The translations under genes and the position numbers were made by a program. From the NCBI RefSeq assembly GCF_007743815.1, contig NZ_CP036265.1:708501-772500 (forward strand): 64,000 nt of DNA, read 5' to 3'. This stretch comes from Alienimonas californiensis (GTDB lineage Bacteria; Planctomycetota; Planctomycetia; Planctomycetales; Planctomycetaceae). The notes beneath the pieces are model-generated. The model saw only the letters and a program-made list of their open reading frames with translations. It made no database searches and was not told where the DNA came from. Positions within the stretch are counted from its first letter, which is position 1, and every line of letters begins with the position of its first letter. Below are positions 43,716 to 47,238 of the stretch, piece by piece.

Positions 43716-43767
43716 CGGAGCCGGAGCCGCGATCGGATCTTCGTCGCTCCCCTCGCCCCCTTTTGGG

Positions 43768-43903
43768 GGAGAGGGGCTGGGGGTGAGGGGGCAGCGACGC
43801 CCGATGGCCTTTCACGCCCCGTTCGCTCCCCCGTCGGCCGGTCAGCCACTGCAGAGAGCGAAGGCGTGCGAACCGCGCTTACCCTCACCCCCGGCCCCTC
43901 TCC
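43768..43903. repeat. Inverted repeat of a CCTCACCCCC-type dispersed element
   Basis: Arms 43768-43789 and 43882-43903 (core GAGGGGCTGGGGGTGAGGG) are reverse complements at all but one position, 92 bases apart. Each arm adjoins its own short hairpin (43749-43776 and about 43897-43917). It fills the space between the convergent OstA-like and heme-dehydrogenase genes and may act as a terminator for both. Confidence 0.75.
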
Positions 43904-43952
43904 CTGAGGGAGAGGGGAGACATGGCGGTCGAGAGCGGTTGGCCGAACCGTA

Positions 43953-46900
43953 CTAACGCGGCGCCGACTGCGTCCGCAGGTAGCCGATTAAATCCCGCAC
44001 CTGCGTCTCGGTGAGGGTTTTGAACAGCCCCTCCGGCATCAGCGAGGCGTCGCCGGCTTCGATCTCCAGCACGTCGCCGGCCGGCAGGGTCACGGTGGCG
44101 TCGGCGGTGGCGAGGGTCAGCGTGGCGTCGTTCGAGTCGCTGACCACGCCGGTCAGCACGCGGCCGTCGGCCAGCAGCACGGTCGAGACCCGCCACGCCG
44201 CCGGCACGATCGCCGAGGGGTCGAACACGTTGCCCAATAAATAATCCAGGTTCCGCCGGTCCGAGCCGGTCAGGTTCGGGCCGAGGTCCCCGCCCTCGCC
44301 GTACAGCTTGTGGCAGCGCCCGCAGACGTTTTTGTACGCCTCCCGCCCGGCGCCGAGATCCGGCTCGCCGGCGGCTGCCAGCTTCTCCTTCCACGCTTCA
44401 ATCTCCGCCAGCTTCTCCTCCGGCGTGGCGCGGGTGGTCCCCCACTGTTCGTCGAGGACGGCGTCGATCTCCGGGTCTTGAAAGGCCCGCAGCGCCCGCA
44501 CATGCTCCGCGGAAAGCGTTGTAACGCCGAGGCCCGGCAGGGCCTCCGCCAGTTTCTTCCCGTAGCTCGGCCGGCTGACCAGCGTGGCCAGCAGGGCGTC
44601 GCGGTCCTCGAGCCGCACCCGCGGCAGGGCGTTCAGCAGCACGGCGGCGGCCTCGTCGCTTTCGAACGCCCCCAACCCGCGGGCCGCGGCGGCGAACACG
44701 TTGCGGTCCTCGCCCCGTTGCCGTTTGAGCAGGTCGATCAACACGGGGGCGACGGCCTCGTCGCGGGCCTCCGCCAGCGAGTCGATCGCCGCCACCCGGG
44801 CCGCGTCCGAGGCGGAGCGATCCGTCACCACCCCCCGCAGCTCCTCCAACGCCGCCCCGTCTCCGAAGATCACGCCGAGTTTGTTGGCGAGGGCTTTGAC
44901 CTCCGCATCCGCCGACGCCGCGAAGACGGGTTGCACCTCGGCCCATACCGGCGGCGGGGTGACTTTGCGACGACCCTCTAACGCGGCGAGGGCGCCGGTG
45001 AGGACGTCCTGTTGAAACGCGACGGCGTCGTCACCAACCCGAAGCGTCAGCGAGGACGTCGCCGCAGGCGGCGCGGGCTGCGCCCGCGGTCCCTCGCTGA
45101 CGCTTCGGGTTAGTAGAGCGGCCCGTTCCAACAGCGCCCCGAGGGCCGCCCCATGCGGTTCGCTGGGCAATTCGGACGTAATGCGGCGGGCGGTATATTC
45201 CCGGAGTAGCGGGATCTTGGACTCCGCGGCGAACGTGACGGCCTCGGCGGGGAATGCGGCGACGGCGGGCTCGACGCCGTACCAAGTCATCAGGGGCAAG
45301 TTGTGGTCGTCGGCGTCTTCGGAACGAGATGCGAGGGCAGCAGCAATGGGCAACCGGTCCGATAGCGGCGCCCGCCTCAATCCGGACGCCGCCACGAGCC
45401 GCACCCGCGGCGACGGGCTCCCCCCGCCGACACCAAAGAGTCCCTCAGACGCCCCCTCGATCGAATCGGCAAGTCCAGTGTGATGCAGATCCCGTAGGAG
45501 AGTGCAGACGACCGCTTCCTTCCGCTCACCGTCGCCTTTCTCTTTAAGAACTCGACGAATCTGCCCCAGTGCAAAATAGTACGCTTCCTCAGGATTCTCC
45601 GCGTCCGATGGACGAGAGATGTCGGCGAGAGCGACGAGCAGACGGCAGTACCGCATCAGTTCAAGCCCGTGCACCTTTCCCAACCGCCAATAAAACAGCT
45701 CAGCCAGCGGCGACTCGTCCGCCTCGCCAAAATCCCGGAACACTTGAGTTCCCGGTTCGAGAATCAGCCGCATTGCGTGTCGACGGTGCCATACGTTCGA
45801 ATGCCAAAGGGCTGCGGCGATTAAATCTGCATCGCTCCAACTCGCCAAATCCACCGTCTCCCCCGCCCGCTCCGGTTTGCCGTACGTGATCTTATAAATC
45901 CGGCCGCTGGTGCGGTGGACGCCGTCGTGGTCGTGGCATTCGCCGAGGTCGGTCCAGTCCAGCAGGAAGACGCCGCCGTCCGGGCCGCTTTTCAATTCGA
46001 CGCCCTTGAACCACGGGCTGTTGGCGAAGGCGAAGTCCGGTTGGTGCGTGATTTTGTAGCCGCTGCCGTGGGGGACGGGGCGGTCGCGGTTGATCCGCCT
46101 GCCGTGCGTGTTGCACATATACAGGTCGCCACGGTACTCCTCCGGCCAGTTGTCGCCCTGATAGATCATCGCCCCGGCGTGACTGTGCCCGCCGCCCAAG
46201 TCGTCCGCGGTGGCGGCGCCGGCGCTGTCGGGGCGGCTTTCCGTCCAATCGCCGCCGGCGTCCCAGTGGTAGTGGTCGGCGTGCTGGTCGATCAGGCCGT
46301 ACAGGTGCGGATTAAAATCCTGGCCGAACATCCGCCGGTAGTGGGCGCCGGGGATCAGGTGCCAGGCGTGGCCGATCACGTTGTTGGTGAAGAAGGCGTC
46401 GCCGTATTCGTTCCAGTCCAGGCCCCAGGGGTTCGTGGTGCCGGTGGCGACCACCTCGAAGGTGTGCCGGGTGGGGTGGAACCGCCAGATGCCGCAGTTC
46501 AGCAGCGTGCGGTTCGCCTCCGGCGTGCCGGGCGCCCCGACGGCGCTGGTCGCGGTGATGCCGTGCCGGCCGTAGAGCCAGCCGTCCGGCCCCCAGGCGA
46601 GGCCGTTCACGACGTTGTGGCCGGCGTCGAACGTGAAGCCGTCCAGCATCACGATCGGCTCGGTCCCCGGTTCGCCGTCCGGCACGTCGTCGCGGTTTTC
46701 GTCGGGAATGAACGACAGCGTGCCGTCGTTCAATACCCACAGCCCGCCGAAGCCGTATTCGAGGCCCGTCAGCATGAAGCCGCGGTCCCAGAAGACGGTG
46801 CGTTGGTCGTGGGCGCCGTCGCCGTCGGCGTCCTCGAAGATGGTGACCCGGTCGCCGTGGTCGACGTCGAACTGGCGGCTCGTATAGGTGAAGCACTCCG

Positions 46901-47165
46901 CGACCCACAGGCGCCCGCGATCGTCGAAGGTCATCGCGATCGGCTGGGCGACGTCCGGCTCCCCGGCGAACAGCGTGACCTCGAAGCCCTCCGGCGCGCT
47001 GAAGGCCTCGGCGGCCTGCTGCGGGGTGTTCGGCTCCGCCCCGTCCGGCTGGGTGTTGCGGATGGGGGGGAAGGCGTGTTCGTGGGCGTCCCCTTCGTCA
47101 CCGTCACCCGCGAAACCGCAAGCGGGATAGGAACACAGCAGAACGAGCGCGGGGACGAGACGCAT
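43953..47165 (-). CDS. PVC-type heme-binding CxxCH dehydrogenase (membrane-bound dehydrogenase domain, HEAT-like, cytochrome c)
   Basis: 1070 residues. ATG 47165 is preceded by GGAG with 8-base spacing and opens directly into a signal peptide (LVPALVLLCSYPACGFA). The N-terminal half is the Pirellula/Verrucomicrobium beta-propeller dehydrogenase domain (GFEVTLFAGEPDVAQPIAM, WVAECFTY, GLAWGPDGWLYGRHG). The middle is helical with HEAT-like repeats (about 560-880), and the end is a cytochrome c with CGRCH at 948-952 and a Met ligand near SLMPEG. It likely oxidises sugars or alcohols in the periplasm. A REP-like palindrome lies inside the frame (45036-45111), and GC content falls around 45440-45860. 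A GTG at 47219 is a less likely start. Confidence 0.92.
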   Translation of the reverse strand: MRLVPALVLLCSYPACGFAGDGDEGDAHEHAFPPIRNTQPDGAEPNTPQQAAEAFSAPEGFEVTLFAGEPDVAQPIAMTFDDRGRLWVAECFTYTSRQFDVDHGDRVTIFEDADGDGAHDQRTVFWDRGFMLTGLEYGFGGLWVLNDGTLSFIPDENRDDVPDGEPGTEPIVMLDGFTFDAGHNVVNGLAWGPDGWLYGRHGITATSAVGAPGTPEANRTLLNCGIWRFHPTRHTFEVVATGTTNPWGLDWNEYGDAFFTNNVIGHAWHLIPGAHYRRMFGQDFNPHLYGLIDQHADHYHWDAGGDWTESRPDSAGAATADDLGGGHSHAGAMIYQGDNWPEEYRGDLYMCNTHGRRINRDRPVPHGSGYKITHQPDFAFANSPWFKGVELKSGPDGGVFLLDWTDLGECHDHDGVHRTSGRIYKITYGKPERAGETVDLASWSDADLIAAALWHSNVWHRRHAMRLILEPGTQVFRDFGEADESPLAELFYWRLGKVHGLELMRYCRLLVALADISRPSDAENPEEAYYFALGQIRRVLKEKGDGERKEAVVCTLLRDLHHTGLADSIEGASEGLFGVGGGSPSPRVRLVAASGLRRAPLSDRLPIAAALASRSEDADDHNLPLMTWYGVEPAVAAFPAEAVTFAAESKIPLLREYTARRITSELPSEPHGAALGALLERAALLTRSVSEGPRAQPAPPAATSSLTLRVGDDAVAFQQDVLTGALAALEGRRKVTPPPVWAEVQPVFAASADAEVKALANKLGVIFGDGAALEELRGVVTDRSASDAARVAAIDSLAEARDEAVAPVLIDLLKRQRGEDRNVFAAAARGLGAFESDEAAAVLLNALPRVRLEDRDALLATLVSRPSYGKKLAEALPGLGVTTLSAEHVRALRAFQDPEIDAVLDEQWGTTRATPEEKLAEIEAWKEKLAAAGEPDLGAGREAYKNVCGRCHKLYGEGGDLGPNLTGSDRRNLDYLLGNVFDPSAIVPAAWRVSTVLLADGRVLTGVVSDSNDATLTLATADATVTLPAGDVLEIEAGDASLMPEGLFKTLTETQVRDLIGYLRTQSAPR
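45036..45111. repeat. REP-like palindrome inside a coding region
   Basis: 20-bp perfect arms (45036-45055 and 45092-45111; core CCGAAGCGTCAGCGAGG) enclose two smaller hairpins, CGCCGC/GGCG and GCGGGC/GCCCGC. The length keeps the host frame open and adds about 25 residues (LTRSVSEGP through SSLTLRVG) to the heme dehydrogenase in its HEAT-like region. Confidence 0.88.
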
Positions 47166-47238
47166 CAAGACTCTCCGGGAGGAACGGCCGGAGTGTCGCC
47201 GGAGCGTCCGGCCGATCACAAGCTCGCGCGCCGCGTCC

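Follow-up and report, generated by a model that had tools for sequence, protein, structure and literature searches.

The gene for a heme-binding protein on the minus strand of the 64,000-nucleotide stretch of the Alienimonas californiensis genome analysed here (the window) carries, in frame, a palindrome that is a REPIN, an inverted doublet of REP sequences. The element belongs to a dispersed family with a linked RAYT gene; the same in-frame insertion is found in A. chondri and is absent from the other homologues aligned, and its silent sites have diverged little between the two species. We consider it very probable that this REPIN is a past or present substrate of the class-3-type RAYT encoded at genome positions 956154-956630, that it was inserted in frame in the ancestor of these two species, and that it has since been constrained at the nucleic-acid level.

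The inverted repeat is exact over 20 bp, as an earlier note on this sequence had proposed. Repeat search, genome count and DNA folding place the left arm, AACCCGAAGCGTCAGCGAGG, at 45036-45055 on the plus strand and its exact complement at 45092-45111 on the minus strand, with 36 nt between them; if extended, the arms pair over 23 nt at 96%. The inner part (45056-45091), which is identical to that of A. chondri at 32 of 36 positions, contains the two hairpins also described in that note, both recovered by DNA folding and matching a family-wide pattern. Hairpin A (45059-45071, plus strand) has the triloop GCA at 45064-45066, and hairpin B (45072-45088, minus strand) has a triloop at 45079-45081 that reads TGC on the plus strand and GCA on the minus. 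The whole element folds as DNA into one long stem with two hairpins (-41.4 kcal/mol, z = -8.4; none of 200 shuffles matched it), and as RNA of the gene strand it gives a fold z-score of -7.0. A scan of 44500-45700 against Rfam gave no match at gathering scores, and comparison with phage records gave none either.

A 17-base core of the arm occurs 39 times in forward and 38 times in reverse orientation in the 5.48-Mb, single-contig genome, whereas a reversed-pattern control occurs in neither, so the palindrome is dispersed and of mobile type, as had been suggested. High-G+C sequence is rich in short inverted repeats, which might be taken to favour a chance palindrome or an assembly artefact; these counts, the fold z-score and the presence of the same insert in the genome of another species leave that reading with a negligible probability. 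Relaxing the 19-base arm to three mismatches revealed a second, sister family, GCCCGAAGCGCAAGCGAGG, whose 18-base core has 88 matches at up to one mismatch. We refer to the family of the window REPIN as F1 and to the second as F2. Taking all places with up to two mismatches, F1 comprises 52 elements (48 pairs and four single arms). The F2 count is 49 elements, with eight further places outside it, and two of the 48 F1 pairs (1205962 and 2004470) are F1/F2 hybrids that also appear in the F2 list. By eye, the commonest F1 layout is ACYAACCCGAAGCGTCAGCGAGGG, an inner part, and the complement. Single F2 arms at loci L215, L220-L222 and L224-L227 lie within a longer repeat, with flanks like gggtgagggtgacgcacgg and gcctcgggctgcc, indicating that F2 has a second, composite form.

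The hairpins of the window copy recur in the longer F1 elements. Among half-elements of both species with inner parts of 33-94 nt, 66 of 102 have a 3-nt loop closed by a 6-bp stem in which five or more pairs are Watson-Crick, against a mean of 19.5 (sd 3.7, maximum 30 in 300 trials) when the 3' sides were re-dealt. The triloop is GCA in 39 of these 66, which carry 26 different stems, related copies not being independent. In the REPIN at the 3' end of the F1 RAYT, two base pairs of the left hairpin are changed on both sides between the species and the loop is kept (by eye). For the Stenotrophomonas maltophilia REP enzyme, triloop sequence is reported to matter, with a G in first place scoring high in selection (PMC8266576); the parallel with GCA is an analogy and suggestive only. 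We rejected the idea that every REP in these genomes has inner hairpins, since fold z-scores are near zero for short inner parts and for F2. Mean values for A. californiensis F1 were -0.23 (15-32 nt), -0.91 (33-45 nt) and -1.71 (46-95 nt), those for A. chondri F1 were 0.14, -1.07 and -0.28 (n = 3 for the last) in the same classes, and F2 inner parts averaged -0.14 overall, with no hairpin signal. Avoidance between left and right stems as the cause of the variable stems, judged by eye only, was likewise set aside.

The host gene occupies 43953-47219 on the minus strand as an open reading frame, with a start at 47165 according to a codon-usage gene caller. Its product, a PVC-type heme-binding CxxCH protein, matches TIGR02604 (E = 1e-111), TIGR02603 (E = 3e-30), DUF7133 and HEAT_2, and consists of an N-terminal TIGR02604 domain, a HEAT-like solenoid and a C-terminal heme domain; 'heme dehydrogenase', as it was first called, is therefore only loosely right. 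The frame reads through the palindrome without a stop, as stated earlier. By the repeat's own bounds the insert amounts to 26 codons (45033-45110, minus strand; residues 704-729, TRSVSEGPRAQPAPPAATSSLTLRVG), and by the homologue alignment to a gap of 28 columns (84 nt), close to the 25 or so residues first estimated. An AlphaFold2 model built from a 49-row alignment (mean pLDDT 82, pTM 0.75) predicts residues 703-729 to form a loop between HEAT-type helices 689-702 and 730-746. The pLDDT falls below 50 at 711-726, which is expected anyway because only 2 of the 49 rows fill those columns; other low-confidence stretches are 1-47, 320-322 and 974-983. Downstream of the host gene, the convergent junction at 43743-43919 of the window holds another dispersed repeat, and similar stretches lie near several A. 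chondri elements.

We next consider the age of the insertion. In A. chondri, the sole genome of the same genus in the comparison set, the orthologue has the insert too, with codon position and frame unchanged. Of 85 rows in the homologue alignment, three have it (the window gene, and the A. chondri gene from two sources), so that the carriers are two species only. The other 82 all lack it, with 0 to 4 residues at that place; these rows include paralogues and distant homologues, some of them duplicating one gene (L019 and L117 read alike), and 25 of the 109 loci with a match had been dropped because they did not cover the region. The absence from relatives that the earlier note had proposed to look for is therefore seen, and we found neither orthologues with the residues but without the palindrome nor a repeat count of one. 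When 29 bases of the inner part were searched for with up to three mismatches allowed, each genome gave a single place and the control none, so that no second copy is seen from which a repeat insertion could have come. On this sequence comparison, the insertion is probably older than the split between A. californiensis and A. chondri. At four A. californiensis REPIN sites compared with syntenic A. chondri stretches, the intergenic DNA was too diverged for boundaries or target duplications to be read.

Synonymous divergence (dS) between the two species is 0.086 in the insert, against 0.69 in the rest of the gene and 2.0 and 0.74 in two flanking stretches. At residues identical between the species, which number 24 of 26 in the insert, the codon is unchanged at 22 of 24 positions, compared with 61/114 locally (p = 0.00026) and 481/693 gene-wide (p = 0.011). 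Fourfold sites are unchanged at 18 of 20, against 263 of 397 (p = 0.018). Within the insert, unchanged codons make up 14/14 in the arms and 8/12 in the inner part. Ranked across the whole gene, the insert stands out only modestly: of 1015 windows of 26 codons, those overlapping the insert included, 50 are equally or more conserved, and some of these fall in the N-terminal domain. The low silent divergence points to DNA or RNA, rather than peptide, as the conserved thing. Selection might instead have kept the peptide, the insert having been domesticated as a functional protein segment in the manner proposed for Rickettsia palindromic elements (RPEs), and the retention of frame and length in both species and the identity of those 24 residues would fit this. 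However, the very few changes in the insert give a dN/dS of 0.45, and its dS is lower than that of the gene by a factor of about eight; the model shows the segment as a loop of low confidence, and the arms are likewise conserved at sites that are not translated. We regard domestication of the peptide as improbable.

The untranslated comparison comes from seven intergenic loci that are syntenic on both sides, at which the arms agree at 221 of 224 positions and the inner parts at 134 of 295 (gaps counted as differences). The loci were obtained by a synteny filter on 82 A. californiensis pairs against 43 A. chondri pairs, which did not return the window locus (this was aligned separately), and they include two, 972547/L186 and 1635901/L180, where separate nearby insertions are possible. 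At the three clearest loci the values are 95/96 for arms, 56/74 for inner parts and 730/908 for flanks (p = 1e-6 and 8e-8, with sites taken as independent). Site-specific arm variants are common to both species, CGACGCG in the left arm at 5190689 and one in the right arm at 3054012. Since the arms are conserved at these sites while the inner parts diverge, the arm sequence itself seems to be what is constrained. Copying alone fails to explain fixed orthologous copies that are conserved, so selection in place on the fixed arms is the simplest reading of these alignments, on a small base of two species and eight loci.

Low silent divergence could also have arisen through recent exchange, either gene conversion with other REPINs or horizontal transfer between the species, and arm donors might be found among some 50 similar elements of one genome and the 30 or so examined in the other. 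Against this, the inner sequence is present once per genome at up to three mismatches, leaving no other copy as donor, and both flanks of the window REPIN have diverged (118/150 and 99/150 positions shared with A. chondri), the nearest bases on one side being alike. Homogenisation would, moreover, erase the site-specific arm variants that both species keep, and exchange therefore seems quite unlikely. Somewhat less doubtful, but still on the unlikely side, is the suggestion that the element acts in the gene as an RNA structure, affecting stability or translation pausing or serving as a cleavage site, with the peptide a by-product. The RNA fold z-score and the position of sister copies beside gene 3' ends (described below) are consistent with it; set against them is the lack of an Rfam match in the region scanned, and a single intragenic copy need not behave like copies lying after stop codons. 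Returning to constraint on the nucleic acid in place, we offer tentatively the further possibility that host selection, beyond copying, holds the REP arms, the in-gene copy being a dual-use coding sequence that preserves a nucleic-acid structure which is read by the class-3-type RAYT or acts in the transcript.

We then examined where the copies lie relative to genes, as predicted by a codon-usage gene caller made for this analysis. One of the 52 A. californiensis F1 elements, the window copy, spans a gene and 51 do not; the figure for F2 is 0 of 49 (two loci are common to both lists), and that for A. chondri F1 is 1 of 33, the orthologue of the window gene. The coding share of the window is 86%. 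The idea that in-frame insertion of the palindrome is a general source of new protein sequence is thus not supported for this genome. A second test, for coding sequence on both flanks, flagged 3/52 F1, 1/48 F2 and 2/32 A. chondri elements; at those other than the window copy one gene ends at the element and another starts beyond it, and the test can miss cases, because the A. chondri orthologue went unflagged. For F1, distances to a neighbouring 3' end are 40 nt or less in 47 of 61 cases in A. californiensis and 20 of 27 in A. chondri, and an element end provides the neighbour's stop codon at seven and five F1 elements, respectively. A. californiensis F1 pairs comprise 17 convergent, 27 tandem, 3 divergent and 1 spanning, and its F2 pairs 23 convergent, 10 tandem and 1 at an edge, against 8 convergent, 28 tandem and 8 divergent gene junctions in the window. 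Convergent placement holds for both of these families, but it was rejected as a general rule because it fails for A. chondri F1 (2 convergent, 23 tandem, 2 divergent, 2 at an edge, 1 spanning). Genome G015 was tried as a larger sample of in-gene frequency and discarded; it is not comparable, because its arms sit inside a bigger repeat and its gene model had 18 genes for training, at 60% coding. Among the G015 pairings listed (34, from 32 loci, two of them twice), a single one spans a called gene and another runs into the end of a gene. This genome has 70 exact-arm pairs, and those listed (e.g. L276, L282-L310) mostly share a near-identical loop within the larger repeat, unlike the diverse loops of Alienimonas.

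Matches to the Y1_Tnp profile occur at six places in the A. californiensis genome, four of them over the cut-off. The F1 RAYT, a HuH/Y1 transposase gene about 203 kb from the window REPIN, lies between F1 REPINs at 956066-956156 and 956645-956764; the F2 RAYT (3812193-3812654) has one F2 arm on each side. Their motifs are NHVH, WWA and YVRDVQ for F1 and NHVH, WWT and YVGTAQ for F2. Both therefore have the class 3 motifs NHVH, W[TA] and Y....Q (Quentin et al., 2018), by comparison with the motifs printed in that paper, and of its longer Y-motif consensus, YV[VI][AENY]EQ, they keep Y, V and Q only. The F1 arm contains the string CCGA; the 5' foot printed for the structures flanking class 3 genes is CnGA, to which it may or may not correspond in position. 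The F1 RAYT scores 24.2 against the Pfam Y1_Tnp cut-off of 23, but falls well below those of NCBIfam REP_Tyr_transpos for class 2 or canonical RAYTs (16.1 bits against 80) and transpos_IS200 for class 1 (20.9 against 55). Between the two Alienimonas species it has a dN/dS of 0.18 at a dS of 0.99.

A wider survey bears on the linkage between arms and enzyme. An arm match with no more than one mismatch is present in 33 of 59 genomes, and 13 have ten or more; the earlier description of the repeat as common in planctomycetes is thus only partly right. Five genomes have a RAYT match that reaches 58% identity, and the same five, and no others, have at least 60 arm matches (A. chondri 63, G012 84, G000 95, G024 98, G015 303), both cut-offs having been picked after seeing the data. 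G012 and G015 have partial RAYT matches, with variant forms of the F1 core as the neighbouring arms. Three genomes have arm matches without a close RAYT (G007 53, G010 52, G008 39), and within the stretch examined near each RAYT, arm-like sequence of the pattern tried was seen at 12 of 30 loci and not at 18. In both Alienimonas species the F1 RAYT frame enters its own REPIN (L015:3067-3631; genome 956066-956630), giving the protein a REP-encoded C-terminal tail (PTRSVSEG...), and an opposite-strand gene (L015:652-3150, plus) likewise ends in a REP-encoded tail. The F2 RAYT with one F2 arm per side (L271/L204; genome 3812106-3812685) resembles a transposon, and short F2 pairs could be deletion derivatives of such a RAYT-bearing unit. 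In the RAYT of a relative (L253; G034:C88:63699-64061 and beside) an insert reads LARRASEG... and may be a further case of an in-frame REP, here within the transposase itself. The earlier note, whose reading as a whole is partly supported, had overlooked the RAYT gene, the insertion shared with A. chondri and the silent-site conservation.

The mechanism that we infer is as follows. The RAYT would bind folded single-stranded REP, recognising a conserved arm with its GCA-triloop hairpin, and would cut and rejoin it, with copies inserting mainly between genes, beside 3' ends. One copy would have entered the HEAT-type solenoid loop once, in the ancestor of both Alienimonas species, where length and frame stay open (84 nt, no stop), implying that the protein tolerated it. 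After that, constraint on the nucleic acid would have kept the arms and, less strongly, the inner part, in the same way as at the intergenic copies that both species share.

REPINs, RAYTs, intragenic REPs and Rickettsia RPEs are already known. As described by Bertels and Rainey (2011; PMC3116915), REPINs are two inverted REP arms around a spacer, dispersed, mostly intergenic and tied to a RAYT gene, and the elements described here are alike in all of these respects. They differ in that the window copy lies inside a gene, that the longer copies have a hairpin after each arm, its triloop often GCA and its stem variable and covarying, and that fixed copies at orthologous sites have kept their arms. 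Class 3 TnpA-Y1 enzymes, found mainly in Planctomycetes, Acidobacteria and Proteobacteria, are described as flanked by 'atypical secondary structures' in a paper that calls for experiments (Quentin et al., 2018; PMC6006769). Our system shares with them the planctomycete host, the three motifs and a gene flanked by a genome-dispersed structure. It adds an intragenic copy and the presence of two families in one genome, both with a RAYT of their own.

The basic phenomenon of an intragenic REP has also been described: over half of intragenic GTAG/CGTC REPs are dimers or groups encoding 20-30 residues, and other copies lie beside 3' ends, where repeat ends give stop codons (PMC3733652). Dimers of that coding length within an open reading frame, 3'-end copies and stop codons from repeat ends are all seen here. 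In contrast, our arms have no GTAG tag at the end (most read ACYAACCCGAAGCGTCAGCGAGGG, by eye) and lack the terminal CGTC that marks CGTC REPs together with RPE-4 and RPE-6, CGTC being internal to the F1 arm and absent from F2. A RAYT is present, whereas those elements have no dedicated transposase gene and PMC3733652 reports none flanked by CGTC units. The same source cites Ogata and Claverie for RPEs as palindromes inserted in frame inside proteins. The window REPIN is likewise an in-frame palindrome in a protein. Rickettsia RPEs occupy many genes, a recurrence not seen here, where there is instead a linked RAYT. In open-licence literature we found no paper on the F1 family in Alienimonas, nor the string TRSVSEG. 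As far as these searches show, the F1/F2 pair with class-3-type RAYTs in Alienimonas, the covarying-stem triloop hairpins and the arms conserved in place are new.

It has long been asked whether REP elements are selfish or serve a use where they sit. Within a coding sequence, a copy comes with an internal clock, the silent sites of the same gene, and by this clock the palindrome evolves several-fold more slowly than its surroundings. The shared intergenic copies show likewise slow change in their arms; a function at the site is therefore testable by synonymous recoding. The analysis also documents, for a genus of planctomycetes, a little-studied HuH/Y1 enzyme class and the repeat families that are probably its substrates. 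A REPIN within a gene, kept almost letter for letter in two species, provides a test case for distinguishing junk from selection.
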